33,438 bases of DNA from Acidobacteriota bacterium (lineage in GTDB: Bacteria; Acidobacteriota; Terriglobia; Terriglobales; Acidobacteriaceae). The position numbers and the translations under genes were made by a program. Below are positions 1 through 19,420 of the stretch, in pieces. The stretch is from assembly GCA_019243475.1 (NCBI GenBank), contig JAFAUE010000075.1, positions 1 to 33,438 of the forward strand, given 5' to 3'. The notes beneath the pieces are model-generated. The model ran no database searches. It was not told the DNA's origin and worked only from the letters and a program-made list of their open reading frames with translations. The first letter of the stretch is position 1, and each line of letters opens with the position of its first letter.

Positions 1-1296
1 AAAGGGTTTCTGAGCAAGCTGGCCAGCAAGCTGAAGCCGCGCAAGGAACATCAGCGCGAAGAAGAGAATACCGTGCGCAAGTACATTCAGATCGACGCGC
101 CGGTTGATCTCGAGTACGACCACCCCGTCGCCAAGCTCCAGGCCGGCGACCTGTTCGGCGAAATGACCTGCATGAGTTTCTACCCGCGCAGCGCGACAGT
201 GGTCGCCGCCGAGTACACGGTTTGTCTGGAAATGCTGCGAAACGTTCTGGACGTTCTGCAGAAAAACAAGACATTTCGTTCCAAGCTCGATGCGAACTAT
301 CGCGCCCGCGCTTTGGAGACTCACCTCAAGAGCGTGCCGATATTCTCCTCGCTCACTCAGGATTTCATTGACTATTTGCGCGACCGCGTGGAGCTGCGGC
401 GATTTACACCCGGCCAGGTCATCTGCCGGCAGGGCGATCCAGCGGGCAGCTTTTATCTGGTTCGCATCGGCTTCGTCAAAGTAAGTGAGCATCATCCAGG
501 CGGTGAGCTCGTCTTGTCCTACCTGGCGCGGGGAAGCTATTTCGGTGAGATCGGACTCCTCTCCGATGAGGGTATTCGAACAGCAACCTGCACTGCCCTA
601 GACCATGTGGAAGTGGTTCGTATCTCGCGAGAAGACTTCCTGGCGATGGTCGGGCGTTTTCCGCAAGTGCGTGCCAGCCTCGAGGCGGTAGCAAAGGAAC
701 GTATCGAGGAGAACCGCAGCCGTCTGCATAATCTACAAAATGTGCCGGTCGACGACTTTCTGCGTCAGGGATTGATGGATGCCCAAAGTCTGCTTGTGCT
801 CGACTTGGACCGCTGCACTCGCTGCGACCAGTGCGTAAAGGCCTGCGCCGATGCGCATGACGGCATCACGCGGCTCATTCGCGACGGCCTCCGCTTCGAT
901 CATTATTTGGTCGCGACTTCCTGCCGGCAATGCCGTGATCCGCTTTGCATGGTGGGTTGTCCGGTTGGCTCCATCCGGCGGAGAAACTCTCTTGAAGTGA
1001 TTATTGAAGATTGGTGTGTAGGTTGTGGTCTTTGCGCGAATAACTGCCCGTACGGAAATATCAATCTACACGAATTTGAACTTCCAAGCGGAGGTACAGG
1101 GCAGAAGGCCAAAGTTAAAAAGGCGACTTCCTGCAACCTCTGCTATGACCATCCTGAGCCGAGCTGTGTTTACGCCTGTCCGCACGATGCGGCGCATCGT
1201 GTGAATCCGCCCGAGTTTTTCGGCGAGATGCTTGGAGGTAAGGAGGTCAAAGCGGTGCCCTACAGCATGTCGCCAGGAATGATGGATCGCCGCTAA
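1..1296 (+). CDS. Cyclic-nucleotide-binding / 4x[4Fe-4S] ferredoxin fusion protein (5' partial)
   Basis: The frame is open from base 1, so the true start lies outside the window; the GTG at 73 is only an internal candidate. The visible part starts in the second half of a cNMP-binding (CAP_ED) domain (GDLFGEM motif near 145-175). A complete second cNMP domain follows at about 330-690, with the typical phosphate-cassette-like SYFGEIGLLSDE segment. From about 800 come four cysteine clusters of the DmsB/HybA/NrfC type: CTRCDQCVKAC, CRQCRDPLCMVGC, CVGCGLCANNC and CNLCYDHPEPSCVYAC, that is 16 cysteines for four [4Fe-4S] clusters. No Tat signal is visible, so a cytoplasmic location is inferred. The next gene, a b-type cytochrome, begins 5 nt downstream. 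Likely role: a ligand-gated electron relay on the cytoplasmic side of a membrane redox complex. The domains are clear, the partners are inferred, and binding of cAMP, cGMP or another ligand cannot be read from the sequence. Confidence 0.9.
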   Translation, partial: KGFLSKLASKLKPRKEHQREEENTVRKYIQIDAPVDLEYDHPVAKLQAGDLFGEMTCMSFYPRSATVVAAEYTVCLEMLRNVLDVLQKNKTFRSKLDANYRARALETHLKSVPIFSSLTQDFIDYLRDRVELRRFTPGQVICRQGDPAGSFYLVRIGFVKVSEHHPGGELVLSYLARGSYFGEIGLLSDEGIRTATCTALDHVEVVRISREDFLAMVGRFPQVRASLEAVAKERIEENRSRLHNLQNVPVDDFLRQGLMDAQSLLVLDLDRCTRCDQCVKACADAHDGITRLIRDGLRFDHYLVATSCRQCRDPLCMVGCPVGSIRRRNSLEVIIEDWCVGCGLCANNCPYGNINLHEFELPSGGTGQKAKVKKATSCNLCYDHPEPSCVYACPHDAAHRVNPPEFFGEMLGGKEVKAVPYSMSPGMMDRR

Positions 1297-1301
1297 AGCC
1301 T

Positions 1302-2198
1302 ATGCTCATTGACCAGACACATCGTCCCTGGCTTTGGCGGAGCATAGTTATTCTTGCCGTCTGTGCGGCGGTGTACGTCCCTTACAACCATTACACGTTG
1401 GGCGGGGCGCGGGGCGGAACCGTAATCGGAATCATCTACGGAAGCCTCGGCTTCGGATTCATGATTTTTGCCGGCTTGTTGAGCTTGCGGAAAAGGTTTC
1501 CCGTGTGGCGCATGGGCCGAACCTCCAGCTGGATGCGCGGGCATCTTTGGTTGGGCCTCCTCAGCTATCCGATTATCCTGTTTCACTCCGCGTTCAGTTT
1601 TGGGAAAGGTACGCTGACCTGGTGGATGATGTTGCTCTTCACCATCGTTATCGTCAGCGGGCTTATCGGGGCTGCGATTCAACATTACCTGCCGAAAATG
1701 ATGACGCGGCAGGTGCCATACGAAACCATTTACGCCGAGATACCACGAATCCGCGGACAGCTCCTTGATGAGGCCGACGTTAAAGTCGCCGAGATTACCG
1801 GCATTACCATGAACCAGTCGGTGATTGCCGCGGCCGCGGGCAACGCCGGAGGCGTGATCGTGACGACTGTACAGATGGAAGAGCAGGTTCGTGACGAGCT
1901 TACCCGCTTCTATAGCAACGACCTTCGTCCCTATTTGGAACTGGAGGGAGGCAAGGGACAAGCGATCGCCGACCGCTCTCTATCTGCAGCAATGTTTATC
2001 AATGTGCGCACACGACTGCCCGAAGTTGTGCATCCCGTGATCTCGGACTTAGAGAGCATCTGCGAAGAGAAGCGGCAGCTCGACCGCCAACTGAATTTGC
2101 ACCGCGTGTTGCACGCCTGGCTGCTGATCCATTTGCCGCTGTCGTTCGCCCTGCTGTTGATGGGTGCCGTGCATGCAGTGGTTGCATTGCGATACTGA
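1302..2198 (+). CDS. Di-haem b-type membrane cytochrome
   Basis: This 298-residue protein has about five hydrophobic helices, near residues 10-28, 40-62, 81-100, 107-130 and 271-295. A soluble stretch of roughly 130 residues separates helices 4 and 5. Two helices each carry a histidine pair at exact H-x13-H spacing: H81/H95 (within RGHLWLG and LFHSAF) and H277/H291 (within LIHLPLS and GAVHAVV). This is the classical arrangement for two b haems stacked across a membrane, as in the cytochrome b family. Overall similarity to named cytochrome b families is not obvious to me, and the long soluble insertion is unusual. The gene sits 5 nt after the Fe-S fusion gene and 12 nt before the decahaem cytochrome c gene. 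A role carrying electrons through the membrane between those two proteins is a natural inference; a quinone-reactive role is an alternative. Confidence 0.8.
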   Translation: MLIDQTHRPWLWRSIVILAVCAAVYVPYNHYTLGGARGGTVIGIIYGSLGFGFMIFAGLLSLRKRFPVWRMGRTSSWMRGHLWLGLLSYPIILFHSAFSFGKGTLTWWMMLLFTIVIVSGLIGAAIQHYLPKMMTRQVPYETIYAEIPRIRGQLLDEADVKVAEITGITMNQSVIAAAAGNAGGVIVTTVQMEEQVRDELTRFYSNDLRPYLELEGGKGQAIADRSLSAAMFINVRTRLPEVVHPVISDLESICEEKRQLDRQLNLHRVLHAWLLIHLPLSFALLLMGAVHAVVALRY

Positions 2199-2210
2199 CG
2201 AGAACTAACG

Positions 2211-3695
2211 ATGGCCGGACGCATACGCACAGCCAAAAGCCTGGGACAGCGCCACGACTTCCACTACTTCCAGCGTTGGGGGCGGTGGAGGTTCCTGCGT
2301 GCTTTCTTGATGATCGCGGTACCGGCGATCGCGGGACTCTGGCTGTTGGGCTTTGCTTTGCACCACGACTCCGAGCCCTATGCAAGCGGGCCGCTTTCCA
2401 CTGTGCATTCTTTCACCGGGAAAAGATGCGGCACCTGTCATCGTCCTGTCATCGAAGCTGGTTTCTTGAAGGTCGGCTTCAGGCAACATGTGGACGACGC
2501 CGCTTGCCTGAGCTGTCACCAGGCTCCCGCTCATCAGGCGCTTCAAACATTCACTCCAACCTGCGCCTCGTGCCATGTGGAGCACACAGGTTCTCAGCAT
2601 CTGCGGCAAACTGCGGATGAAACCTGCGTCCAGTGCCACGGCGAGCTGAAAGTCAAGAGCGGCTCTCCGCGGTATCAGACGGCGATCTACGACTTCGACA
2701 AGAAGCATCCTGAGTTCGCGCCATTGCGTACAGGATTCGGTGATCCGGGAACGATCAAGCTCAACCACTCAGTGCATATGCGGGCTGGACTATTGGGGCC
2801 AAATGCGCAGCCTGTGCAGATGCAGTGCCAGGACTGCCATCGCACGCCGGCAGATCAAAGCGCACCCTGGAAGTACGGTGAGTCACGACTCCTACAGACT
2901 TCTTTGCAATCGGGAAGCTCGGCGGATCCGCATAATCCTGCGATGCCGGAGGAACCGACTCGCCCTGGGATTGGTCGGGCCTACATGGCGGCTCCCACTT
3001 ATGCCAGCGCCTGCCAGAATTGTCATGCGCTGCAGTTCGACAGCCACTTCACGGAATCGGCGCCGCACGACAAACCTCAGGTCGTTCATGACTTCATCGT
3101 GCGCAGGCTTACCGAGTACATCCATCAGCATCCTGAGGCGATCCACGAAACCCCGCGTCCCTTGCGTGTCATGTTCGGCGGCACGATTTCGCGCGAGCCG
3201 CAGACGCCGCGGATCGCTCGCAGTGCCGATGAGTGGGTGCGTATTCACACTGAAGACGCTGAGAACCTGCTTTGGAGAAAGACCTGTCAAGAGTGCCATA
3301 CCCTCAGGTTTTCGCCGAATCAGACGACAGATAGTTCCGCTCTGCCGGAAGTGGCTCCCTCTCAGATAAAAGCGGTGTGGCTACCAAATTCTGTTTTTAG
3401 TCACTACGCTCATGCCGGCGTCAATTGCCAGTCCTGCCATACCAAGGCGCTCGCCAGCACGGAGACACAGGATGTGCTGATCCCGAGCATCACTACCTGC
3501 CAGCAGTGCCATAATGGGAACCCGGTCAAGCTCGGACAATCTGAGAACGGCTGCTTCCTCTGCCACCAATATCACAACTGGAAGCAGTCCCGCGGTCCAT
3601 TCATTCCTACGCACGCGATGGACCAGCTTCGAGGTGCGGCTCCGCAACGGCCTTCGACTGAAGGAATCGTTGCTTCTCAGCTTTTCCTGCCCTAG
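2211..3695 (+). CDS. Membrane-anchored decahaem cytochrome c
   Basis: This 494-residue protein has one N-terminal membrane segment at about residues 29-49, with no obvious signal-peptidase site, so it is probably anchored with the body in the periplasm. Ten CxxCH haem-attachment motifs follow: CGTCH, CLSCH, CASCH, CVQCH, CQDCH, CQNCH, CQECH, CQSCH, CQQCH and CFLCH. The first starts at residue 73. Four are closely packed at the front and three cluster at the end, with looser spacing between. Many additional histidines could act as distal ligands, as in cytochrome c3/c7-like chains. It lies 12 nt after the b-type cytochrome gene. Within the family such proteins move electrons between membrane and periplasmic partners; the true acceptor or donor is unknown. 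Maturation would need a Ccm-type pathway, and ccm genes are present at 16902-19710. Confidence 0.92.
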   Translation: MAGRIRTAKSLGQRHDFHYFQRWGRWRFLRAFLMIAVPAIAGLWLLGFALHHDSEPYASGPLSTVHSFTGKRCGTCHRPVIEAGFLKVGFRQHVDDAACLSCHQAPAHQALQTFTPTCASCHVEHTGSQHLRQTADETCVQCHGELKVKSGSPRYQTAIYDFDKKHPEFAPLRTGFGDPGTIKLNHSVHMRAGLLGPNAQPVQMQCQDCHRTPADQSAPWKYGESRLLQTSLQSGSSADPHNPAMPEEPTRPGIGRAYMAAPTYASACQNCHALQFDSHFTESAPHDKPQVVHDFIVRRLTEYIHQHPEAIHETPRPLRVMFGGTISREPQTPRIARSADEWVRIHTEDAENLLWRKTCQECHTLRFSPNQTTDSSALPEVAPSQIKAVWLPNSVFSHYAHAGVNCQSCHTKALASTETQDVLIPSITTCQQCHNGNPVKLGQSENGCFLCHQYHNWKQSRGPFIPTHAMDQLRGAAPQRPSTEGIVASQLFLP

Positions 3696-3751
3696 CTCGC
3701 AGCCTTCAGTTTGGCTAACCGAGTCGCAATGCTATGGTTGAATAGCGCCAA

Positions 3752-4927
3752 ATGGGGGATAATCGGTTTCCGAATTCGTTCTCCCGGTTGCTGAACAGCA
3801 GAGCCGCAAGCATTTTCCGCCGGCCCGTGTACATCTTCTGGCTGTCGCTGCTTGCGATCACATTCTTTGCCCTGACCTTCGGATTGAACCGACTGTATGC
3901 GCAGAAGCAGCAGCAGCTGAGTCGGTACTGGTACGGCAGGGCGCAAGCCGCTCTTGAATCTCATCAGGCAGACGAAGCTATATCCGATCTGCGCACTGCG
4001 CTGGTCTACTCGCACGATCGTCCACAGTACCTGTTCTCGCTGGCCCAAGCCCTGGAAGCTGCGGGTCGCATAACCGAAGCTCGTTCCTACCTTCTGAGCT
4101 TGCTGGAGGATGAGCCCGGCAACGGCCCCTATAACCTTCAACTTGCGCGTCTGGCGGCGAAGGAGAACGACGTCAGTCATGCAATGCGCTATTTCAATGG
4201 CGCGATTTATGGCGCGTGGGAATCAGATCCCATTTCGAAACGGCAGCAAGCGCGGCAGGAATTGGTCTCTTATCTTCTGGAAAAAGGGATGAATACCCAG
4301 GCGCGCGGCGAACTTCTCACCTTCACTACCGATATGCCCAAAACGGCACAATCGGAGTTCTGGGTTGCAAATGCCTTCAGCCGACTCGGCGACGATAGCA
4401 GTGCGCTGCAGTTTTACAAGGCTGGACTGCGACTCGACCGCCGCAACGCCGGAGCGATGCTGGGAGCCGGCGAATCTTCATTCCGATTGCTTCGCTACCA
4501 CGAAGCATTGAACTACTTTAAGGCGGCCTTGGCTTTACGACCGGACGCTACCACGTCCGGTTGGCTGCAATTAACCTCGATGACGATGGACTTGAATCCG
4601 TTTCAAAGCCAGATGTCTGCGGTTGAACGTCGCCATCGTCTGATCCTGGCGATGGATATCGCCGACCAGCGATTGCGCGCCTGCACTCAGCTACAAAATG
4701 GATCTTCCGCAAACAGCCCATCGACATCGCAAAGTCTCCGAGCGCAGTGGATCCAACTCGACGATCAACTGCAGAACGCGCGCAGCGATTCCGACGTAGT
4801 CCAACTTCTCGCGCCTGCAGCGAACTTAATTGTGAACATCGAAAAGCAAAACCGGTGTAGTGCTCCCGCAGTGGGTGACCAAGCATTGCTTCAAATCTAT
4901 GCCAATGCTGAGGAGTTGCAGCCTTGA
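3752..4927 (+). CDS. Membrane-anchored TPR-repeat protein
   Basis: This 391-residue protein has a hydrophobic helix at about residues 28-46 (YIFWLSLLAITFFALTF), followed by tetratricopeptide-like helical pairs from about residue 60 to 280. Recognisable units include AQAALESHQADEAISDL, AQALEAAGRITEARSYLL and the ALNYFKAALALRPDA block. The C-terminal hundred residues have no clear domain. It is probably a periplasmic scaffold tethered to the inner membrane. It lies 56 nt after the decahaem cytochrome gene, and its TGA stop overlaps the TTG start of the CLC gene by 4 nt, so translational coupling with the channel is likely. No strong Shine-Dalgarno sequence precedes the ATG at 3752. A role in assembling the upstream cytochromes with the channel is inferred from position alone. 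Confidence 0.82.
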   Translation: MGDNRFPNSFSRLLNSRAASIFRRPVYIFWLSLLAITFFALTFGLNRLYAQKQQQLSRYWYGRAQAALESHQADEAISDLRTALVYSHDRPQYLFSLAQALEAAGRITEARSYLLSLLEDEPGNGPYNLQLARLAAKENDVSHAMRYFNGAIYGAWESDPISKRQQARQELVSYLLEKGMNTQARGELLTFTTDMPKTAQSEFWVANAFSRLGDDSSALQFYKAGLRLDRRNAGAMLGAGESSFRLLRYHEALNYFKAALALRPDATTSGWLQLTSMTMDLNPFQSQMSAVERRHRLILAMDIADQRLRACTQLQNGSSANSPSTSQSLRAQWIQLDDQLQNARSDSDVVQLLAPAANLIVNIEKQNRCSAPAVGDQALLQIYANAEELQP

Positions 4928-6642
4928 GCGACGTCACGCCGGCGCTTGCGGATCACGTTGAAGAACAACCATCGGGCAAGGTCGCCTCTCAAGGTGAGCG
5001 CTTCTTCCTCGTGCTGGCGATCTTTATCGGAGTTCTGGCCGGACTCTCCGTAGTTTGCTTCCGGATCGCCATCGAGTTTGTTCGAATCACGCTCCTCGGC
5101 TCATCGCTGTCGCCCGGCTTCCCTCGAATTGTCCTCGCGCCTGCATTCACTGGAATTGTCGTTGCGCTGCTGGTTCTCTTTGCATTTCCCCGCGCGCGAG
5201 GTAGCGGCGTCAACCAAACTAAGGCGGCGCTTTACATCTATGACGGATACATTCCGTTTCGCACCGCCGTCGGAAAGTTCGTATGCTCGGCGTTGGCAAT
5301 TGGCTCTGGGCAATCGCTCGGTCCGGAAGATCCGTCGCTGCAGATCGGGGCGTCGATCGCTTCCGCGTTGGGCAGACGGCTTCAGCTGAATCGGGAGCGC
5401 CTGCGCTTAATAGCGCCGATCGGTGCGGCTGCCGGACTTTCGGCGGCGTTCAACTCGCCTATTTCGGCCGTGTTGTTCGTGATTGAGGAAGTAATCGGCA
5501 GATGGACGGCCAGCATCTTCGGCGCCGTGGTGCTGGCTGCAGTCTCGAGCGTAGTTGTGGCGCGATACTTTCTCGGGTCTCAGCCCCTTTTCCGAATTCC
5601 TCCGGTGCAGTTCATCGCTCCCAGCGAGCTATTTGCCTACGGCGTCTTGGGAATTGTGGGCGCCATCGCAGCTGTGATATTCGCCAAAGCCATCGAGATT
5701 CTGCGTCCGCGCATGAAGTCCCTGCCGAGGTGGACGCAGTTTCTGCAGCCTGCGCTCGCAGGACTGATCATCGGCCTCATCGGCTGGCTCGGCCGTCCGG
5801 AGGTAATGGGTGCCGGATACGAATTCATGGATCAGGCAATGCATGATCAATTCGCCTGGAAGGTCATGGCAATTCTGGCCGGATTGAAAATTCTCTCCAC
5901 AACCTTATCCTTCGTCAGCGGCACGCCCGGAGGAATGTTCGCACCCACTCTGTTCATCGGCGCAATGCTCGGCGGAGCGGTTGGAGGGGTTGAACGGCTA
6001 TTGTTTCCCCACCTTACTGGTTCGGTGGGCACATATGCTCTCGTTGGCATGGGTGTTCTGTTCGCCGCATTCCTGCGCGTCCCGTTGACATCTGTCTTCA
6101 TGGTCCTGGAGGTAAGCGGAAACTACTCAATCATCGTTCCTGTCATTCTGGCCAACACGCTCGCGTATCTCATCTCGCGCAACCTTCAACCGGTTCCCAT
6201 TTTCGACATGCTGAGCCGGCAGGACGGGATCGATCTTCCCTCAATGGAAGAACAGCGCGAAGAACGCGTGCTGCGCGTCGAAGACGCCATGCGAGCGGTG
6301 GATGTGCCGATCGTCAACTCACACGAGACGATTGAAGATGCTTTGCACGCACTGGAGGCGACCAGCAGTCCTGACGTTCTTGTCGATGACCCACCGTTTG
6401 GCTGGTGCAGCCTTAGCCGGGAGACGCTCACCGGCATCGTGGTACAGGGGAAGGGTGTCGAAGTATTGTCAGAGATTCTCCCTGAAGCTCGCATGCCGGT
6501 GCTCTACCCGGACAACCGGCTTGAAGTTGCCCTCCGACACATTGCCCAGTGGCCGTTTCTCCCTGTTGTGCATCGTGCCAACCCAAAGCAACTGGTTGGA
6601 TTGATCTCCCTGCGTGACGTTATGAGCGCGTTCGTGCAGTAA
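4924..6642 (+). CDS. CLC-family chloride channel/antiporter with C-terminal CBS-like region
   Basis: This 572-residue protein shows the CLC signatures: GSGVNQ (the GSGIP-like selectivity motif, near residue 97), GPEDPSLQIGA (GxExP, keeping the gating glutamate) and GGMFAPTLFIGAMLGG (the GIFAP-like motif). Between them lies the SAAFNSPISAVLFVIEEVIG core. About ten or more membrane helices are evident up to residue 420. The last 130 residues resemble a CBS-domain pair (start VEDAMRAVDVPIV, end LVGLISLRDVMSAFV), a module that often binds adenine nucleotides. The start is a TTG overlapping the TGA stop of the TPR gene, in agreement with coupled translation. CLC proteins transport chloride, either passively or as 2Cl-/H+ exchangers; the retained gate glutamate fits either. 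Its place at the end of a redox operon suggests charge or pH compensation for electron flow, which is an inference. Confidence 0.93.
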   Translation: MSDVTPALADHVEEQPSGKVASQGERFFLVLAIFIGVLAGLSVVCFRIAIEFVRITLLGSSLSPGFPRIVLAPAFTGIVVALLVLFAFPRARGSGVNQTKAALYIYDGYIPFRTAVGKFVCSALAIGSGQSLGPEDPSLQIGASIASALGRRLQLNRERLRLIAPIGAAAGLSAAFNSPISAVLFVIEEVIGRWTASIFGAVVLAAVSSVVVARYFLGSQPLFRIPPVQFIAPSELFAYGVLGIVGAIAAVIFAKAIEILRPRMKSLPRWTQFLQPALAGLIIGLIGWLGRPEVMGAGYEFMDQAMHDQFAWKVMAILAGLKILSTTLSFVSGTPGGMFAPTLFIGAMLGGAVGGVERLLFPHLTGSVGTYALVGMGVLFAAFLRVPLTSVFMVLEVSGNYSIIVPVILANTLAYLISRNLQPVPIFDMLSRQDGIDLPSMEEQREERVLRVEDAMRAVDVPIVNSHETIEDALHALEATSSPDVLVDDPPFGWCSLSRETLTGIVVQGKGVEVLSEILPEARMPVLYPDNRLEVALRHIAQWPFLPVVHRANPKQLVGLISLRDVMSAFVQ

Positions 6643-7762: not shown

Positions 7763-9436
7763 TTAGCCATTCCCAACTGGAAATGGCTCTGAAGATCCGA
7801 TCTCCTGTTCTGAGGAGAGGCGAAGCACGCGCTTGGTCTGCACCGGCGGCGCATGGAGGACATAATCCATAAACGCCCGGATTGCGGTCGCGCCATCTTT
7901 GTATCCTTGTTCGATCGCGGGGCGCGCAATCCTGCCGTCGAAATCAAGCAGCGTCGCGGCCAGAGGAGCATCCGGACGAATCGTGAATGCCTTTAAGTAG
8001 CGGTAGGTGTGCGCTCCGATTTCCAGGATGATCTCCTCGGGCCGCCATCCCATTCTCGATGCGTAGCTCTCGCAGATCTGGTTCACACTCTGCACGACTC
8101 GCAAGTCGGCGATTACATTTCTCGACATCAGAATGTCAAACGCCCGCATGCCTACGTCGAGGAATGTCTTTATTTTGGGTACGACCTCCTGAGCCGGATC
8201 CACGGTGATGAGAAAGACCACGTCTGCACCCAGACGGATCGCAGGCGTAATGGGCTGCTTGGCTACCAGGCCCCCGTCCGACCACAGCCCGCCGTGCATT
8301 CTTACCGGTTCATACGCCATCGGGAACGCTGACGACGCAATCACCGCTCGAATCAAGTCATGCGCGTGTTCAAAATGGGAACGAATGAACTCTGCATCGA
8401 CTCCCGGATCGTTTGCAACCTCATGGAGTTTCTTGTTGATGAAGTACTTTTCCCGTCCCGTGTAAAGTTCAGCCGCAGTCATCACCAAACGAATCGGGGA
8501 TCGGCGCAGTCGACGCTGGTGAATTCTGCGCTTGAGAAAACGCGTGCGCTCGTAGTTCTGGAAGAGGCCGGAATCGAGCGGCGATTTCAGAATCTTGTGG
8601 CTGAATAGGCTGATGCGGTTACGCAATAGCGACCAGAGTAAAAGCAGGGAAAGCGCGGTCACGCTTAAAGCGATCGAGCTGCCGGTCGTGAGCATGAAAA
8701 CCGGCGTCGCCTTGAAATGCACATGCGTGGTGATCAATACCCAGAATAAGAAACCGAGAATGATGGCATTCGCAATCAGGGATGAAATCAGCTTCTTTTT
8801 CTCCGGCATCCAGCGATTGCGTCCGAGAAGATGCAGCAGCACGTAGTACGCATAGGAAAGTTCTGTGTAGGAGAAGAGCACACTTAGACCGGCGGCGCCC
8901 AGTAGCAGCCAGGTCAGCAATGGCGTGTCCTGGTGAAAGAAGATTCCGAAGCGATGCATCAGATCAGCGGCCGCATTGCCGAAGCCTGCAGTCGCGGCGA
9001 TGAGTCCGGCCAGAATAATGATGTACCGCGACCAGTCGATTCCCACCGTAGCTGGCGTTAGATCGAGCCAGCCTTGAACCAGGGGCTCGGCATTGCCCAC
9101 ATATCCACGTCCGTGCGCTGCATACGAGGCGGCGTTGATTGCGCCAATCGAGGTCGAGGTAAGGATGTGGCTGGGAAGATGGGCATCCTGGAAGGCCAGT
9201 AAAACGCCTGCCTCGTAGGCGCCGCGCGCTCCGCCTCCAGACAACACGACCGCGATGCGTCCGGGGAATCGCTTCCACAGCCTGGCGACATCGTCCGGCA
9301 GGCTGGCACGGAACCGCTGGCGCTCCTCCTGGAGCAAATTGCTGAATTCCTGATGGATTTCGATGCAGGAAGGATATCGCGAAAATGCATTGAAAACATT
9401 GGTTAATCCGGTACCTGAGCAGGCGGGTGTGAGCAA
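7763..9436 (-). CDS. Patatin-like phospholipase with inserted transmembrane region
   Basis: This minus-strand frame gives 557 residues from a TTG at 9436; no ATG or GTG precedes the conserved domain, and no clear ribosome site is seen, so the start is uncertain. Patatin features are the oxyanion-loop motif SGGGARGAYEAGVL (near residue 66), a nucleophile motif TSTSIGAIN with Ser96, and the dyad aspartate in LWSDGGLVAKQP. The nucleophile elbow reads S-x-S-x-G instead of the usual G-x-S-x-G. Between the serine and the aspartate about 150 residues of hydrophobic sequence form roughly four membrane helices, so the catalytic domain is interrupted by a membrane insert. The family hydrolyses acyl esters of lipids. 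It stands alone, divergent from the imuA cassette and convergent with the receiver-like gene. Confidence 0.85.
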   Translation of the reverse strand: MLTPACSGTGLTNVFNAFSRYPSCIEIHQEFSNLLQEERQRFRASLPDDVARLWKRFPGRIAVVLSGGGARGAYEAGVLLAFQDAHLPSHILTSTSIGAINAASYAAHGRGYVGNAEPLVQGWLDLTPATVGIDWSRYIIILAGLIAATAGFGNAAADLMHRFGIFFHQDTPLLTWLLLGAAGLSVLFSYTELSYAYYVLLHLLGRNRWMPEKKKLISSLIANAIILGFLFWVLITTHVHFKATPVFMLTTGSSIALSVTALSLLLLWSLLRNRISLFSHKILKSPLDSGLFQNYERTRFLKRRIHQRRLRRSPIRLVMTAAELYTGREKYFINKKLHEVANDPGVDAEFIRSHFEHAHDLIRAVIASSAFPMAYEPVRMHGGLWSDGGLVAKQPITPAIRLGADVVFLITVDPAQEVVPKIKTFLDVGMRAFDILMSRNVIADLRVVQSVNQICESYASRMGWRPEEIILEIGAHTYRYLKAFTIRPDAPLAATLLDFDGRIARPAIEQGYKDGATAIRAFMDYVLHAPPVQTKRVLRLSSEQEIGSSEPFPVGNG

Positions 9437-9593: not shown

Positions 9594-10508
9594 ATGCTGA
9601 ATCTTGCTTCTGACCTGCGCAGCCGCGTAGAAGCGGCCCTTGAACATCGCATTCCCCACGCTCTTACTCCGATCCAGAGAACGACCCCGGAACTGATGCC
9701 GACCGGCATTGGATCTGTGGACACGCTCACTGGAGGAATTCCCTTGGGATGTCTCACAGAAATTTGCGGTACGGAATCTTCCGGTCGCACCAGCGTGCTC
9801 ATGGCAATCATCGCGCAATCTATGCGCCGAGGAGAGATATGCGCGCTGGTGGATGCGAGCGATGCCTTCGATCCGCAGTCGGCAACCAATGCAGGAGTGG
9901 AGTTGGAAAAGCTTCTATGGGTGCGATGTGGACGCGTGAATTTGGACGATAGTACGCGATCAGCCAGGATTGAGTCGGCGCTCAAATGTACAGATCTCCT
10001 TCTGCAGGCTGGGGGATTTGGGCTTGTGGTGCTCGATCTGGCCGATACTCCTGTTTCGGCAGCGCGGCGTATTCCGCTTACAACGTGGTTTCGTTTTCGT
10101 CGCGCAGTGGAACATACAAAGACTGCGCTGGTCGTTCTTGAAGAACAACCCCACGCTAAAAGCTGCGCCTCGCTGGTAATGGAGTTTACTGTGGCGCAAT
10201 CCACCTGGACTGAGGCCGCGGAGCAACGCGGAACAATTATTGGCGTTCACGGAGATGCGCTGGAGGGAGTCTCCTTTCGCGTGACTTCCCAGGGTGTGGC
10301 TGTTCCGTTTGAGAGGCCGGCATCTTCCTTTGAAACTCCGCAGCGCTGGAATACCCCGCGCCTGCTCAGCGCTATGCATGTCCATCTACAAGTGATGCGC
10401 TCACGTGGTTTGCGCGAGATGCAAAAGTTCCCAGCACAATCAGAACGTGTGCATTCGCAGCTTCTAAGCTGCTCAGCTTCTGAACCGCTGGCAGGCCTAG
10501 AGGCTTAG
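9594..10508 (+). CDS. imuA: ImuA-like RecA-fold accessory protein of the mutasome
   Basis: This 304-residue protein matches the ImuA/RecA-like layout: an N-terminal helix (LRSRVEAALEHRI), then MPTGIGSVDTLTGGIPLGCLTEICG, and a P-loop-like GTESSGRTSVL near residue 63. In RecA the P-loop has lysine (GPESSGKT); here arginine replaces it, so ATP hydrolysis may be impaired or altered. Walker-B-like hydrophobic strand: GLVVLDLADTP. The remainder resembles a divergent RecA core without the DNA-binding C-terminus. Known ImuA-type proteins work with ImuB and DnaE2 in damage-induced mutagenesis, and those genes follow directly. The ATG at 9594 gives a sensible N-terminus. The stop codon lies inside a strong inverted repeat (10459-10521). 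Confidence 0.82.
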   Translation: MLNLASDLRSRVEAALEHRIPHALTPIQRTTPELMPTGIGSVDTLTGGIPLGCLTEICGTESSGRTSVLMAIIAQSMRRGEICALVDASDAFDPQSATNAGVELEKLLWVRCGRVNLDDSTRSARIESALKCTDLLLQAGGFGLVVLDLADTPVSAARRIPLTTWFRFRRAVEHTKTALVVLEEQPHAKSCASLVMEFTVAQSTWTEAAEQRGTIIGVHGDALEGVSFRVTSQGVAVPFERPASSFETPQRWNTPRLLSAMHVHLQVMRSRGLREMQKFPAQSERVHSQLLSCSASEPLAGLEA

Positions 10509-10521
10509 CAGCTTAGAAGCT
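10459..10521. repeat. 15-bp perfect inverted repeat spanning the imuA stop codon
   Basis: AGCTTCTAAGCTGCT at 10459-10473 is exactly repeated in reverse complement at 10507-10521, separated by 33 nt. After one mismatch the pairing continues with three or four more base pairs toward the loop. The second arm contains the last two bases of the imuA stop codon (10506-10508) and ends 17 nt before the imuB ATG. No T-run follows, so a classical terminator is unlikely. An mRNA hairpin that stabilises the imuA part or limits imuB translation is possible. Confidence 0.75.
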
Positions 10522-10538
10522 TCTTCCGATTGCCGCTT

Positions 10539-12101
10539 ATGTTCGCCTGTATCTACGTTCCTGATTTTCCTGCGCAAGCGTTGACGCGCGTCTCGCCTGA
10601 ACTGCGCGATCAAGCCATCGCTGTACTCGACGGAACGCCGCCGCTGCTCACGGTGATTGCTGCTAATCCTCGTGCGCGCGACATGGGAATTCAGGTTTCC
10701 ATGACCAAATTGCACGCCGAAGCTTGCGCGGGTCTGCAATTGCTCCGCCGCTCCTTGCTGCAGGAAGCCGCAGCGCATGACGCCTTACTGGACTCAGCCA
10801 GCAGTTTCTCTCCGCGCGTAGAAGACACGCAATTGCGCACCCCAGGCAGTCATCTTCCCGGCGACACCATCATCCTCGATATCTCCGGCCTCAATCGCCT
10901 GCTGGGGTCTGCAGCAAAGATTGCACATGAGATTTTCTCTGCCGTTTCCAAAATGGGACTCATTGCAAATGTTGCCATTGCCGACAATCCCGATGCCGCC
11001 ATGCATCTGGCACGTGGCTTCCTCGGCGTGACCGTGGCTGCACCGGGAACGGAAGCGCGGCGCCTGGCGACATTGCCTGTCACTCTGCTCGGGGCTGCAC
11101 CGGCAATGCTGGAGACCCTGGAAAGCTGGGGCATCCATGATTTTGGCTCACTGGCGGCTTTGCCCGAAGTGGCACTGAGTCAGCGGCTCGGACAAGAAGG
11201 CCTGCGTCTGCAAAAGCTCGCATGCGGAAGCACGCGGCGTACGCTCGTGCCCGCTGAGATGCCGCTCAAATTCGAAGAAACATTCGAGCTTGAAGATGCG
11301 CTTGAACTCCTTGAGCCACTGGCTTTCCTTTTGAATCGCATGTTGGAGCAGATATGCGCCCGCTTGCTGGCGCGCTCTCTTGCTGCCAACGAGATGCGTC
11401 TCGCGCTGGAGTTGACCGGTTATGAAGATCAATCGGCCGCCGAGCAGGAGGCGAGAAAAACGGCATACGAACGTACCTTCCAGTTTCCTGTACCGATGCA
11501 GGATTGCCGGACATTCCTCAAACTTTTGCAGCTTGATCTCGCTGCACATCCGCCGGGTGGGCCGGTAAAGAAGATTTTGCTCGCCGCCAAAGCTGTTCCA
11601 CCACGCTTTGCCCAGTCTGGATTATTTCTCCCGCAAGGACCTGCGCCGGAACGGCTGGAGCTTACGCTGGCACGCATTCGCGGCATTGTCGGCGACGAGC
11701 GCGTAGGTTCACCCGAATTGCTCGACACGCACGCCCCGGAAGGGTTTCGCATGAGGTCGTTTCATTCGAACAATTCCACCTCAAAAGGCGCGAAGGACGT
11801 GACACCCGGTTCTGTTCGTGGATCTTCACGCACGGCGATGCGCATCTTTCGCCCACCGCTTCAAACAAAAGTTCAACTGAAGCAGGGAATGCCGTCGCGC
11901 CTATTTCTACATGGTCAGAGGCATCAAGTTACCGCTGCAGCAGGACCATGGCGCAGGAGTGGTGGATGGTGGACGGAACACGGCTGGACCCGCGACGAAT
12001 GGGATCTCGAACTTCGCACCAATGAAACTTCTCCTGTCTTGGTGCGGGTGTACCGGGATTTGACCTCGGCGAAATGGTTTGTAGAAGGGAGCTTTGACTA
12101 A
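10539..12101 (+). CDS. imuB: ImuB, catalytically degenerate Y-family polymerase-like protein
   Basis: The start at ATG 10539 gives the typical N-terminus MFACIYVPDFPAQAL; an in-frame TTG at 10530 is less likely. About 520 residues. The Y-family palm and helix-hairpin-helix regions are recognisable, for example IANVAIADNPDAAMHLARG and LESWGIHDFGSLAALPEVALSQRLG. The metal-binding acidic residues are degenerate: the first motif reads IYVPDF and the second ILDISGL rather than a SxDE motif. This is the hallmark of ImuB, which acts as an adaptor linking the beta clamp, ImuA and DnaE2 rather than as a polymerase. The C-terminal part after about residue 390 is less conserved and ends with a WxLRTNETSPVLVRVYRD block common in this family. 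It lies between imuA and dnaE2, as in other mutasome cassettes. Confidence 0.9.
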   Translation: MFACIYVPDFPAQALTRVSPELRDQAIAVLDGTPPLLTVIAANPRARDMGIQVSMTKLHAEACAGLQLLRRSLLQEAAAHDALLDSASSFSPRVEDTQLRTPGSHLPGDTIILDISGLNRLLGSAAKIAHEIFSAVSKMGLIANVAIADNPDAAMHLARGFLGVTVAAPGTEARRLATLPVTLLGAAPAMLETLESWGIHDFGSLAALPEVALSQRLGQEGLRLQKLACGSTRRTLVPAEMPLKFEETFELEDALELLEPLAFLLNRMLEQICARLLARSLAANEMRLALELTGYEDQSAAEQEARKTAYERTFQFPVPMQDCRTFLKLLQLDLAAHPPGGPVKKILLAAKAVPPRFAQSGLFLPQGPAPERLELTLARIRGIVGDERVGSPELLDTHAPEGFRMRSFHSNNSTSKGAKDVTPGSVRGSSRTAMRIFRPPLQTKVQLKQGMPSRLFLHGQRHQVTAAAGPWRRSGGWWTEHGWTRDEWDLELRTNETSPVLVRVYRDLTSAKWFVEGSFD

Positions 12102-12105
12102 GCCT

Positions 12106-12251
12106 TTTTCACCACGGAGGCACGGAGAACACGAGGAGAAAAATAGAAAAGGTCTTATGACCAATATTTAACGTCAGTGGCACACATCGCTCGTCGCCAT
12201 ATCCCAAGCCATTTTTTTGTCCTCTGGCTCTCCGTGCCTCCGTGGTGAAAA
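12106..12251. repeat. Palindromic intergenic repeat with 23-bp perfect arms (imuB-dnaE2 junction)
   Basis: The arm at 12106-12128 (starts TTTTCACCACGG, ends CACGGAGA) is an exact reverse complement of 12229-12251. Flanking bases continue imperfectly: GAGGAGAAAAA on one side, and TTTTTTTGTCCTC on the other. The 100-nt interior is AT-rich and holds a small GGTC/GACC hairpin. The CACCACGGAGGCACGGAGA motif resembles a dispersed intergenic element I associate with many bacterial genomes; this is from memory and not a search. The right arm ends 10 nt before the dnaE2 ATG, so the element supplies the 5' leader of dnaE2. Confidence 0.85.
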
Positions 12252-12261
12252 GCTTTTGCCC

Positions 12262-15200
12262 ATGTACATCGAACTACACGCGCGCTCCGCTTTTAGCTTT
12301 CTCGAAGGCGCATCCTTGCCGGAAGCGCTGATAGCGGTCTGCGCCGAGTACGGCATGCCGGCGATGGCATTGCTCGACCGCAATGGTGTTTACGGCGCGC
12401 CACGCTTTCATCTTGCTGCGCAGAAAAATAAGCTGTATGCCCATATCGGCGCGGAAGTCACAGTCGATGACACGCTATTCGGCGAAGCCGGTCCGGCGCG
12501 TTATCCGCTATTGGCTGAATCGCGCGCTGGATATCAAAACCTCTGCCATCTGATTACCCGCACCAAGCTGCGCGCCAAAAAAGAAGAGAGCACTGCGCAC
12601 CTCGAAGAACTCGAAGAGCACGCTTCGGGACTTGTCTGCCTTACTGGTGGCGAAGACGGCCCTCTGGCAGAAGCGCTCATGCGCGGCGGTTACAACGAAG
12701 GCGTGCGCACTGTTGAGTGCCTCACGCGCATCTTCGGCCGGCAGAATGTCTTTGTCGAACTGCAGCGGCATTTTGATCGCCGCGAGGAAGCGCGCAATCA
12801 GGCGGCAGTGGCCATCGCGCGGACACTGGGGCTTCCCATTCTGGCAACCAATGGCGTGTCCTATGCCACTGCGGCAGATCGCGAAGTGCTAGATGTCTTT
12901 ACTTGCATTCGTCATCACCGGCAACTGGAGAATGCCGGACGTCTGCTGTCGATCAACTCCGAACGCTTCATCCGCACTCCTGCGGAGATGGAACAGCTGT
13001 TCGCCGATTTGCCGGAAGCAATTGCCAACACGGCGGAGCTCTCCCGGCGACTGACATTTTCTCTGGAAGATCTAGGGTACGAGTTCCCCAAATATCCCGT
13101 CCCGGAAGGGGAAACGATGATGTCGTTCCTGCGCGAGCGCGCGCGGGAAGGAGCGCAGCATCGCTACGGGCACAAACCTGCTGAACTGCGGCAACGCGCG
13201 CAAAAGCAGATCGAGCGCGAGTTGGCGCTGATCGAGAAGCTCGACTTGCCCGGCTACTTCCTTATCGTTTGGGACATCGTTCGCTTCTGCAGCGAGCAGC
13301 GCATTCTGGTTCAGGGACGCGGTTCTGCAGCCAACAGCGCAGTTTGCTACGCGCTGGGCATTACTGCCGTCGATCCGGTTGGCATGGAGCTGCTGTTTGA
13401 GCGTTTTCTCTCCGAACAGCGGGGGGAGATGCCGGACATTGATCTCGATCTTCCCAGCGGAGATCAGCGCGAGCGCGTGATCCAGCACGTTTACGCCAAA
13501 TACGGAGCGCATGGCGCTGCGATGACAGCCAATGTGATTACGTATCGCGGACGCTCGGCCGCGCGTGAAGTAGGGAAGTCACTGGGCTTCGATGTTGAGA
13601 CGCTCGATCGCCTCTCGGCGCTAGTGGGCTCCTGGGAATGGCGCGGCCCGACTGACACCATGGAGCATCAGTTTCGCCAGGCAGGATTCGATCTGCGCCA
13701 TCCGCGCATCGCTAAGTTTCTCGACCTCGCGCTGCGCGTGCAGGACCTGCCGCGCCATCTCGGACAACATTCAGGCGGCATGGTGGTCTGCCAGGGACAG
13801 CTCAGCTCGGTAGTGCCGCTGGAGCCCGCGAGCATGCCCGGCCGCGTTGTCGTGCAATGGGACAAGGACGATTGTGCCGACCTGAACCTTATCAAGATCG
13901 ATCTGCTCGGTCTGGGCATGATGGCTGTGCTGGAAGACTGCATCGAACTTATCCCGCAGCACTACGGAGACAAAATCGATCTTGCGCTTCTTCCTCAAGA
14001 CGACGCGCCGGTGTATTGCGCTCTGCAAAAGGCCGATACCGTCGGCCTGTTTCAGGTAGAAAGCCGCGCGCAGATGGCCGCTCTTCCGCGCAATGCTCCA
14101 AAATCTTTCTACGACATCGTGATCCAGGTCGCCATCATCCGCCCCGGTCCCATTGTGGGAAAGATGATGAATCCATTCTTAAAACGCCGGCAAAACCTCG
14201 AGCCCGTGCGTTATGCCCATCCCTCACTGGAGCCGGTATTGAAGCGCACGCTGGGCGTGCCTCTGTTCCAGGAACAGCTGCTGCGTATGGCCATGGTGGT
14301 AGCCAACTTTACCGGCGGGGAAGCTGAGGAGTTGCGTCGTGCGATGGGCAATAAGCGCTCGCAAGCAAAGATGGCCGCCATCGAGTCGCGCCTGCGCAGT
14401 GGAATGACGGCCAATGGCATCACCCAGGCCGCGCAGGACGAAATTGTGCAGTCGATCGTCTCTTTTGCGTTATATGGATTCCCAGAATCGCACGCTGCCA
14501 GCTTCGCTCTGCTCGCCTATGCCAGCGCATATATCAAATGCCACTATCTGGCGGCCTTCACGGCGGCGCTGCTGAACAACCAGCCGATGGGCTTTTATCA
14601 CCCGTCGACTCTGGTCAAAGACGCCCAGCGGCATGGCTTGCGCATTCGTCCAATCGACATCACGCGTTCCTCCTGGCCATGTACCCTGGAATGCGAATGC
14701 TGCGAAGATGTCGGCCCGCACAATCGCCCAGACTGCAAGATCACTCTGCGCATGGGTTTACGCTACGTGCGCGGGCTGCGCGAGGAAGCCGCCCAGGCAC
14801 TCGTGCGAGAGCGCAGCGTGAAGCCGTTTGCTTCGGTTGACGATCTCGCTCGTCGCGTTCCTGAACTCAGGCGCAATGAGCTGACCATGTTGGCGCAGAT
14901 CGGCGCGCTAAACAGGATTGGGAGCAGCTTTCATGAAACGCAACACTTCGGCCGCGCCGAAGACGATTTTTCTTTTCTGACGGAAGCCCCGTGCTCTAGC
15001 ACAGGGTCGGACTTTAGTCCGATACAAAAAGACAACAAATGGGCTTCAGCCCCTGCTGCCGCTAAACAACTTCCTGCTGATGCGGGGAATCCCCAACTTC
15101 ATCGTCGCGACGCGCTTTGGCATGTCGAACGCGGCGCCTGGGTAGAAGGTCCTTTACTGCAAAGCGTTACCGAACCTGATTCGCCTTCCCCCCTCGCACA

Positions 15201-15618
15201 GATGACCGCGGAAGAACGCTTGATTGCCGATTATCAGGGGACGGGACTCACCGTGGGCCCTCATCCCATGGTTTATCGCCGAGAGGAGATGAACCGGATG
15301 AGAGTCATCCAGGCAATCGATCTCCCCCATCTAAGACACGGACAATGGACACGAATCGCGGGCTGCGTGATCGCACGCCAGCGCCCCGGGACCGCTAACG
15401 GCTTCATTTTTCTCAGCCTCGAGGACGAAACCGGCATCTCCAACGCGATCATCACGCCTGATCTCTACGATCAGAATCGCCTTCTGGTGATTCACGAGCG
15501 CTTTCTGCTAATCGAGGGAATTCTGCAGAATGTCGAGAACGTGATCTCAGTGAAAGCGCACCGGGTAAGCAGACTGGAAGTGACCGCTGCTGAGACAAGA
15601 TCGCACGACTTCCACTAA
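12262..15618 (+). CDS. dnaE2: Error-prone DNA polymerase III alpha subunit DnaE2
   Basis: Start at ATG 12262 gives MYIELHARSAFSFLEGAS, the normal N-terminus of the PHP domain; the frame continues upstream only through repeat sequence. About 1118 residues, somewhat longer than the usual 1030-1080. The PHP metal motif H-x-H is altered to HAR, in line with loss of proofreading in DnaE2. The polymerase core contains QGRGSAANSAVCYALGIT and the catalytic PDIDLDLPSGDQRE. Then come the QVAIIRPGPIVGKMMNPF and LYGFPESHAASFALLAYAS blocks and helix-hairpin-helix motifs. A C-terminal OB-fold (about residues 1020-1100) ends in SHDFH, typical of the family. An in-frame palindromic repeat (14983-15052) lies in the linker before the OB-fold. 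It performs translesion synthesis together with ImuA and ImuB. Confidence 0.95.
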   Translation: MYIELHARSAFSFLEGASLPEALIAVCAEYGMPAMALLDRNGVYGAPRFHLAAQKNKLYAHIGAEVTVDDTLFGEAGPARYPLLAESRAGYQNLCHLITRTKLRAKKEESTAHLEELEEHASGLVCLTGGEDGPLAEALMRGGYNEGVRTVECLTRIFGRQNVFVELQRHFDRREEARNQAAVAIARTLGLPILATNGVSYATAADREVLDVFTCIRHHRQLENAGRLLSINSERFIRTPAEMEQLFADLPEAIANTAELSRRLTFSLEDLGYEFPKYPVPEGETMMSFLRERAREGAQHRYGHKPAELRQRAQKQIERELALIEKLDLPGYFLIVWDIVRFCSEQRILVQGRGSAANSAVCYALGITAVDPVGMELLFERFLSEQRGEMPDIDLDLPSGDQRERVIQHVYAKYGAHGAAMTANVITYRGRSAAREVGKSLGFDVETLDRLSALVGSWEWRGPTDTMEHQFRQAGFDLRHPRIAKFLDLALRVQDLPRHLGQHSGGMVVCQGQLSSVVPLEPASMPGRVVVQWDKDDCADLNLIKIDLLGLGMMAVLEDCIELIPQHYGDKIDLALLPQDDAPVYCALQKADTVGLFQVESRAQMAALPRNAPKSFYDIVIQVAIIRPGPIVGKMMNPFLKRRQNLEPVRYAHPSLEPVLKRTLGVPLFQEQLLRMAMVVANFTGGEAEELRRAMGNKRSQAKMAAIESRLRSGMTANGITQAAQDEIVQSIVSFALYGFPESHAASFALLAYASAYIKCHYLAAFTAALLNNQPMGFYHPSTLVKDAQRHGLRIRPIDITRSSWPCTLECECCEDVGPHNRPDCKITLRMGLRYVRGLREEAAQALVRERSVKPFASVDDLARRVPELRRNELTMLAQIGALNRIGSSFHETQHFGRAEDDFSFLTEAPCSSTGSDFSPIQKDNKWASAPAAAKQLPADAGNPQLHRRDALWHVERGAWVEGPLLQSVTEPDSPSPLAQMTAEERLIADYQGTGLTVGPHPMVYRREEMNRMRVIQAIDLPHLRHGQWTRIAGCVIARQRPGTANGFIFLSLEDETGISNAIITPDLYDQNRLLVIHERFLLIEGILQNVENVISVKAHRVSRLEVTAAETRSHDFH
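14983..15052. repeat. REP-like multi-hairpin element inside the dnaE2 coding sequence
   Basis: Outer arms GAAGCCC (14983-14989) and GGGCTTC (15041-15047) are exact inverted repeats. Inside are CCCGTGCT...AGCACAGGG (14988-15006, one bulge) and the perfect palindrome TCGGACT-TT-AGTCCGA (15007-15022); GGGCT/AGCCC (15041-15052) closes the element. It is translated in frame as a Ser/Ala/Pro-rich linker between the tRNA-like hairpin-free polymerase core and the OB-fold. The composition is that of an intergenic repeat rather than of a protein domain. Confidence 0.8.
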
Positions 15619-18953: not shown

Positions 18954-19420
18954 TGCGGTTGCGCTCTATCGCCTCGACACTGGCGACGATTTTCTTCGCT
19001 GTAGTGCTGCTCGGCGCGAGCGGCGATCAGGCGCGTTTCACCGACCTCGGTCATCGCATGATGTGCGTCTGCGGCTGCAATCAGATTTTGCTGGAATGCA
19101 ATCACGTGGGCTGCACCTACTCAGACCGCATGCGTCAGGAGCTTACCGCTGCGATTCAAGTTGGCGACAACGACGACAACATACTTGCCGCGTTCGTCAA
19201 AGAATACGGAACAACGGTGATCGCTGCTCCGGGAACACATGGGTTTGATCGCGTAGCCTGGATCATGCCCTTCGCCGTCTTCATCTCGGGAACCGTATTT
19301 GCAGCAATCGTGATTCGCAATTGGAAGGGAGGTCCTCGGCCTCCAGCCGCTGGCGGCAGTGGAGTGTCAGGAGGTTTGGGGAAATATCGCGACCAGGCAC
19401 GGAAGGAGACTGAATTGTGA
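18953..19420 (+). CDS. ccmH: CcmH/CycL-like cytochrome c maturation thiol protein
   Basis: ATG 18953 shares one base with the ccmF stop, giving a protein of about 155 residues. An N-terminal signal or anchor helix (about 6-24) is followed by FTDLGHRMMCVCGCNQILLEC, corresponding to the CcmH active-site region. The usual LRCxxCQ is replaced by a C-x-C-x-C-N-Q arrangement, with two further cysteines in ECNHVGC. The three-helix bundle (YSDRMRQELTAAIQVGDNDDNILAAFVKEYG) and the C-terminal membrane helix (about 100-122) are normal for the family. The role is to keep apocytochrome cysteines reduced for haem attachment. A GTG start of the next gene overlaps its stop by 4 nt. Confidence 0.88.
   Translation: MRLRSIASTLATIFFAVVLLGASGDQARFTDLGHRMMCVCGCNQILLECNHVGCTYSDRMRQELTAAIQVGDNDDNILAAFVKEYGTTVIAAPGTHGFDRVAWIMPFAVFISGTVFAAIVIRNWKGGPRPPAAGGSGVSGGLGKYRDQARKETEL

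Follow-up and report, generated by a model that had tools for sequence, protein, structure and literature searches.

A conserved gene cluster of Acidobacteriota as part of a putative cAMP-linked NAD(P)H-to-periplasm electron conduit

Which of the five plus-strand genes at the start of an Acidobacteriota contig belong to one system, where would its electrons come from and go to, and does a second messenger act on it? The contig (JAFAUE010000075.1, 33,438 nucleotides, taken whole and called the window here) is G000:C495 of a 512-contig draft genome. Its first five open reading frames encode a protein with cyclic nucleotide-binding (cNMP) domains and iron-sulfur (Fe-S) clusters (gene 1), a di-haem cytochrome b (gene 2), a deca-haem cytochrome c (gene 3), a TPR protein (gene 4), and a CLC protein (gene 5). 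A sequence-only reading had joined all five into a messenger-controlled membrane conduit, and the layout that it gave is confirmed by our coordinates, with 5 nt between genes 1 and 2, 12 nt between genes 2 and 3, 56 nt between genes 3 and 4, and a 4-nt overlap of genes 4 and 5. Our results make it fairly probable that genes 1 to 3 are part of a cyclic AMP (cAMP)-linked conduit from NAD(P)H to the periplasm, and probably from NAD(P)H to the cell surface; the CLC gene is probably only a neighbour. The features of the three-gene core are as follows.

1..1296, plus strand, 5' end open: gene 1, partial, the C-terminal 431 residues of a protein of about 735 residues (Pfam cNMP_binding and Fer4; full-length homologues)
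145..204, plus strand: phosphate-binding cassette of cNMP domain 1, GDLFGEMTCMSFYPRSATV, with Glu and Arg 100% conserved in 89 homologues
541..588, plus strand: phosphate-binding cassette of cNMP domain 2, FGEIGLLSDEGIRTAT, with Glu 98% and Arg 94% conserved in 89 homologues
793..1191, plus strand: DmsB-like region with four [4Fe-4S] cysteine sets (Pfam Fer4; Cys 95-100% conserved in 89 homologues)
1302..2198, plus strand: gene 2, predicted membrane di-haem cytochrome b with two His-x13-His pairs, 81/95 and 277/291 (invariant His; AlphaFold2 model)
2211..3695, plus strand: gene 3, predicted membrane-anchored deca-haem cytochrome c (transmembrane segment 32-50; ten CXXCH motifs)

The content read from gene 1 was borne out by Pfam, which gave a cNMP_binding match at 6e-31 and several Fer4 matches, but the gene as seen in the window is cut by the contig edge. 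Searching relatives with gene 2 returned, apart from the locus of the window itself, nine further strong loci, and in all nine gene 1 encodes about 735 residues, consisting in order of a NuoG-like region (Fer2_4, NADH-G_4Fe-4S_3, and two Fer4 domains), two cNMP domains, and the DmsB-like four-cluster region. Directly upstream of gene 1 in these relatives lies a NuoE-NuoF fusion (NuoEF) with flavin mononucleotide (FMN)-binding, SLBB, and Fe-S domains, and the NuoE/NuoF/NuoG N-module as a whole matches 2Fe-2S_thioredx, Complex1_51K, NADH_4Fe-4S, Fer2_4, and NADH-G_4Fe-4S_3. The window's own genome carries this NuoEF together with the first 422 residues of gene 1 on contig C206, and its usual nuoE and nuoF genes of complex I are located separately on C129. 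The end of C206 overlaps window positions 1-335 by 335 bp inside gene 1 with 95.5% identity, and the assembly break is therefore probably due to strain variation or mixed strains.

A profile scan with the gene 1 alignment over 84,980 species genomes, from which the best 80 loci were kept, shows that this arrangement is conserved. Counting each feature only in loci with enough flank on the relevant side (eligible loci), we found NuoEF in 79/79, gene 2 in 80/84, gene 3 in 78/81, and a divergent tetra-haem c554-like gene beside NuoEF in 65/72. Leftward extension thus supplied the flavin subunit for which the sequence-only reading had proposed to look, and the order of the first three genes, on whose conservation that reading depended, is kept. 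The hosts among the best 80 loci are mostly Acidobacteriota of several orders, and others are labelled Methylomirabilota/Rokubacteria or Planctomycetota; two unexpected labels, an Actinobacteria metagenome-assembled genome and a Rhodanobacteraceae, may be binning errors. Three Planctomycetota loci (L110, L114, and L117) carry gene 1, which has NuoEF as its neighbour in the first two, and no recognizable gene 2 or gene 3 (b or multihaem c gene) was found in these three loci. Cultured carriers are Granulicella aggregans M8UP14 (L104) and Sphingobium herbicidovorans MH. The cofactor sites are retained as well. In an alignment of 82 proteins, conservation is 93-100% at almost every position of the NuoF motifs CNADESEPGT, GEE[TS]AL, SCGKCxPCR, and SICGLGQ, with GEESAL in place of GEETAL and a variable GGAGFPTG. 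Gene 1 likewise keeps the cysteines of its [4Fe-4S] sets (two N-terminal, four C-terminal), which are 95-100% conserved in its 89 homologues.

Gene 2 matched no Pfam family, and its label as a di-haem b protein is supported by the four histidines of its two pairs, which are invariant in 55 homologues. The AlphaFold2 model (pLDDT 88) places the haem-ligating histidines in membrane helices and contains a basic loop at 64-79 and an insert of about 135 residues; following the positive-inside rule, we put the loop and the insert on the cytoplasmic side, and in this orientation the two haems b would lie near opposite faces of the membrane. No solved relative was found by sequence, and Foldseek and VIA-align gave helical-bundle matches only, by which a family is neither claimed nor excluded. 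No gene 2 was found in viral contigs. Since quinone sites are common in di-haem b subunits and gene 2 has, besides its four haem ligands, a further nearly invariant histidine (His128), the protein might instead exchange electrons with menaquinone and belong to an alternative NADH:quinone or quinol:cytochrome oxidoreductase. However, an Fe-S chain and a deca-haem c protein on opposite sides of the membrane permit a direct path, and no quinone site is recognizable in gene 2, which has no solved relative; we consider a quinone-linked role quite unlikely. The deca-haem label of gene 3 held up, with ten CXXCH motifs, Pfam Cytochrome_C7/c3 matches, and one N-terminal transmembrane segment, and the ten haems are kept across 73 homologues. 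Cytochrome c maturation genes for CcmF (PF16327, PF01578) and CcmH (PF03918) lie at window positions 16902-19420, roughly 13 kb downstream of gene 3.

The enzyme that would feed these cytochromes differs between loci. In the distant Acidobacteriota loci L151, L153, and L159-L162, a fusion of a flavin adenine dinucleotide (FAD)/NAD(P) oxidoreductase with cNMP and [4Fe-4S] domains stands in place of NuoEF/NuoG and is followed by genes for the b protein, an FHA/deca-haem c protein, an HbpS-like protein, a barrel, and a 10-haem LVIVD protein, and then by the c554 gene where contig and stretch reach that far. Plasmid pMSHV of S. herbicidovorans carries the same parts with an FAD-NAD(P) domain, in two oppositely oriented blocks. 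The proteins of these swapped-input loci align with those of the window at the haem ligands and at the four cluster motifs. Moreover, some genomes have a gene 1 that lacks the NuoG-like part, and NDH-2-type NADH dehydrogenases with a C-terminal cNMP domain are encoded beside core or outer-membrane genes (L106:13793-15397 and L158:2360-3994). From these FAD fusions, shortened forms of gene 1, and NDH-2-cNMP proteins, it appears that the input enzyme varies around a constant cNMP-Fe-S adaptor and haem wire. Variant loci L168, L171, and L172 encode a longer cNMP-Fe-S protein with unassigned terminal regions, an FHA/multihaem c/Fer4 protein, and several additional cytochromes with 8-9 haems, and an HbpS-like gene of the haem-degrading family lies beside the conduit in 19 of 45 fully flanked loci (for example, L033:15668-17212 and L176:4397-6373).

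The sequence-only reading had left the direction of electron flow undecided, and the NuoEF upstream makes a link to NADH the likely answer. All of the carriers are reversible in principle, and the same parts list would also fit an inward conduit in which extracellular or periplasmic donors reduce NAD+ through the haems. Such electron uptake seems distinctly improbable to us, as electrons would have to move uphill from c-type haems to NAD+ and the cluster contains no energy-coupling or bifurcating subunit; in addition, NuoEF lacks the extra ferredoxin domain of HydB-type bifurcators, and the conduit is fed or flanked by NAD(P)H dehydrogenases of three kinds. Pfam gave no Fer4 match for a bifurcator-type C-terminal ferredoxin domain on NuoEF, which ends soon after SICGLGQ. 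HydB/BfuB-type electron bifurcation was set aside on the lack of this extra C-terminal [4Fe-4S] domain.

What, then, of the nucleotide-binding domains? Both cassettes (Gly-Glu ... Arg-Ser/Thr-Ala) are intact, and their Glu and Arg are 94-100% conserved in 89 proteins, so that the ligand-binding residues are kept in homologues, as the proposal of messenger control presupposed. A CHASE2-cyclase gene lies within the locus in 14 of 45 fully flanked loci, in differing positions and orientations. Class III cyclases are present in 10/10 core-bearing relatives and in 15/51 others (p = 4e-5, phylogeny ignored), and in each of the four core genomes with a single class III cyclase that gene adjoins the cluster (chance about 4e-9). 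The cyclases near the cluster have the catalytic Lys, which we take to fit the use of ATP, and the Sphingobium locus encodes both a CHASE2-cyclase and a phosphodiesterase resembling CpdA/SpdA. On the kept cassettes, the nearby cyclases with their ATP-type Lys, and the Sphingobium cyclase and phosphodiesterase, cAMP is the most likely candidate for the ligand of the cNMP domains of gene 1. Many cNMP-fold domains bind no nucleotide, and cyclase genes are near only some clusters; the domains could thus be structural remnants or bind another ligand, leaving an ungated NADH:cytochrome c oxidoreductase. We think this unlikely in view of the conservation of Glu and Arg, the recurrence of cNMP domains on other input modules, including the FAD-fusion and NDH-2 proteins, the proximity of the cyclase in the four single-cyclase genomes, and the phosphodiesterase in the Sphingobium locus. 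Of the earlier proposal, the membrane electron conduit with cNMP domains stands, and control by a second messenger is suggested by the retention of these domains and by the neighbouring cyclase and phosphodiesterase genes.

Candidate parts of an outer-membrane step were also found. In many loci, a convergent gene for a 9-haem LVIVD-repeat protein adjoins a CarboxypepD_reg-type gene, whose product was modelled as an 18-strand beta-barrel with AlgE as its closest solved fold (Foldseek E 9e-16). A predicted outer-membrane barrel is encoded beside a 9-haem protein, which is a porin-cytochrome feature. The best structural matches of the barrel are AlgE and substrate-specific porins, MtrB-type barrels are not among the 50 matches listed, and no close solved relative of the 9/10-haem LVIVD protein was found. 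Among 61 relatives, the ten with a strong match to gene 2 are exactly the ten with a strong match to the 9-haem LVIVD gene (chance about 1e-11, phylogeny ignored); five of these ten genomes belong to the window's genus, where the two genes are not adjacent, and a sixth congener has neither. Inspection of 23 LVIVD-bearing genomes revealed a cNMP/Fe-S gene in the same locus in 11 and an NDH-2-cNMP fusion in one more. In a two-contig 3.7-Mb genome, the barrel and 10-haem LVIVD pair (L152, G153:C2) has no core genes within its 20-kb stretch.

Our results lead us to propose that NADH would be oxidized in the cytoplasm by the FMN and Fe-S clusters of the NuoE-NuoF fusion encoded just upstream, and that electrons would pass through the NuoG-like Fe-S module and then the four [4Fe-4S] clusters of gene 1. 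They would cross the membrane via the two stacked haems b of gene 2 and reach the ten haems c of gene 3 in the periplasm, from where their probable route to or across the outer membrane would be the tetra-haem c554-like protein, followed by the barrel and the 9/10-haem LVIVD protein. The cNMP domains are placed between the two Fe-S segments of gene 1, and cAMP from the neighbouring CHASE2 cyclase would probably switch the flow on or off, making the conduit a second-messenger-gated outlet for excess reducing power. The composition of the cluster, its conserved order, its retained cofactor- and nucleotide-binding residues, and the co-occurrence of its parts are read directly from the genomes; beyond these, our confidence falls from NADH as the donor, through the outward direction and the outer-membrane step, to gating.

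Several observations weigh against this proposal, which is based on sequence. The middle Cys of the NuoG-type His-Cys3 site of gene 1 is absent in 87/87 proteins, which makes the electron path less certain at this point. The genes of the outer-membrane pair are unlinked to the core in the window's genus, and congeners have several cyclases each, none of them on core contigs. The barrel model is of moderate confidence (pLDDT 65). At the scale of the phylum, the LVIVD gene was detected in 33/297 genomes and gene 2 in 7/297 at the threshold used, with six shared; the LVIVD/barrel pair thus occurs without a detected core, and therefore either serves other systems or marks genomes in which gene 2 was missed. 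Finally, Sphingobium is regarded as aerobic, and because of such carriers a purely anaerobic-respiration role, or a simple Fe(III)-respiration label, is doubtful. As a tentative extension, which we hold to be plausible but somewhat short of probable, the loci may represent a modular class of ligand-gated conduits in Acidobacteriota, Methylomirabilota, and Alphaproteobacteria, in which a cNMP-Fe-S adaptor connects a single transmembrane haem wire, leading to the cell surface, with interchangeable NAD(P)H dehydrogenases (of NuoEF, FAD, or perhaps NDH-2 type). In such a class, cAMP would act directly on the redox enzyme and not via transcription.

The two remaining genes of the window's series are as follows.

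3752..4927, plus strand: gene 4, TPR protein with one N-terminal transmembrane segment; a neighbour, not core (Pfam TPR; distribution in relatives)
4924..6642, plus strand: gene 5, CLC protein with a C-terminal CBS domain; a neighbour, not core (Voltage_CLC 2e-88)

A five-gene system in which the CLC protein balances charge or pH during electron flow would agree with the operon-like spacing in the window and with the same arrangement in two congeners. The interval between gene 3 and the CLC gene contains no promoter-like site, and terminator-like sites only at chance level, because of which co-transcription of both genes with the core within this genus is possible. However, the TPR gene follows gene 3 in only 2/77 and the CLC gene follows the core in only 2/71 eligible loci, and the five-gene arrangement is otherwise confined to those two congeners. 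The TPR gene is found in 27/61 relatives independently of the core (5/10 with it and 22/51 without it, p = 0.74), and TPR-CLC pairs are present in genomes that lack the core. Both genes were rejected as general parts of the system on this distribution across loci and the 61 relatives; their membership, as first proposed, did not survive, and we judge a five-gene CLC system to be very improbable. Further along the window, the minus strand encodes a patatin-like phospholipase with apparent hydrophobic segments (7763-9436), and a RecA-like protein, a Y-family polymerase (IMS), and a DnaE-type polymerase follow in series (9594-15618), resembling an ImuA-ImuB-DnaE2 mutagenesis cassette. K+ channel, GH63, and MutS genes are local neighbours only at the loci.

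The cluster looks conserved yet undescribed. We found no description of this composition in the open full-text literature, which is weak evidence of novelty, as subscription journals and preprints were mostly outside coverage. Multihaem proteins of unknown substrate have been noted in a survey of Acidobacteriota (PMC8100337), and porin-cytochromes in Holophaga were found in a bioanode study (PMC7399161). If our proposal is true, a conserved route that starts at NADH and has second-messenger domains in the electron path would offer cells a new means of venting reducing power and would give a testable redox function to abundant, poorly understood soil Acidobacteriota; the cultured carriers G. 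aggregans M8UP14 and S. herbicidovorans MH open the question to experiment. The extracellular electron transfer routes that we know of start at the quinone pool and are regulated via gene expression or biofilm signals.

Among known systems, the N-module of complex I and the HydABC/FdsABG-type enzymes share with the conduit the NuoE-NuoF part (FMN, NADH, and Fe-S motifs) and the NuoG/HydA-type N-terminal Fe-S domain. In contrast to them, the conduit cluster has no proton-pumping subunits and no hydrogenase or formate site, lacks one Cys of the His-Cys3 cluster, and has fused cNMP domains and four further [4Fe-4S] clusters, with a di-haem b and a deca-haem c protein as partners. No Nuo membrane subunit, of the membrane arm or quinone module, is in the conserved core, where genes 2 and 3 follow gene 1 instead. 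Extracellular electron transfer conduits (Mtr, Omc/Ext, PCC, and CbcL/ImcH) likewise combine inner-membrane b/c cytochromes, periplasmic multihaem c proteins, and a barrel with a multihaem c protein. Their known inner-membrane entry points, to our knowledge, take electrons from quinol, whereas the input here would be NAD(P)H via Fe-S clusters. The present conduit also differs in its barrel, which is predicted to resemble AlgE and to have about 18 strands, and in the LVIVD repeats of its 9/10-haem protein. A haem stretch of about 51 residues in the Sphingobium LVIVD protein matches ExtM of the selenite/tellurite reduction operon (NCBIfam NF040943) at 64 bits, far under the family cut-off of 800 bits, and the rest of the protein is unmatched. 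The Esn system of Geobacter sulfurreducens also ties a nucleotide second messenger to the use of an extracellular acceptor, but there chemosensory proteins and a diguanylate cyclase act on colonization, and the Esn electron carrier has no cNMP domain (PMC5585712). With CRP-family and other cNMP-binding regulators, gene 1 shares two cNMP domains with intact phosphate-binding cassettes; unlike CRP-family proteins, it has no DNA-binding domain and holds its cNMP domains inside a redox enzyme, which suggests that its control would be allosteric rather than transcriptional.

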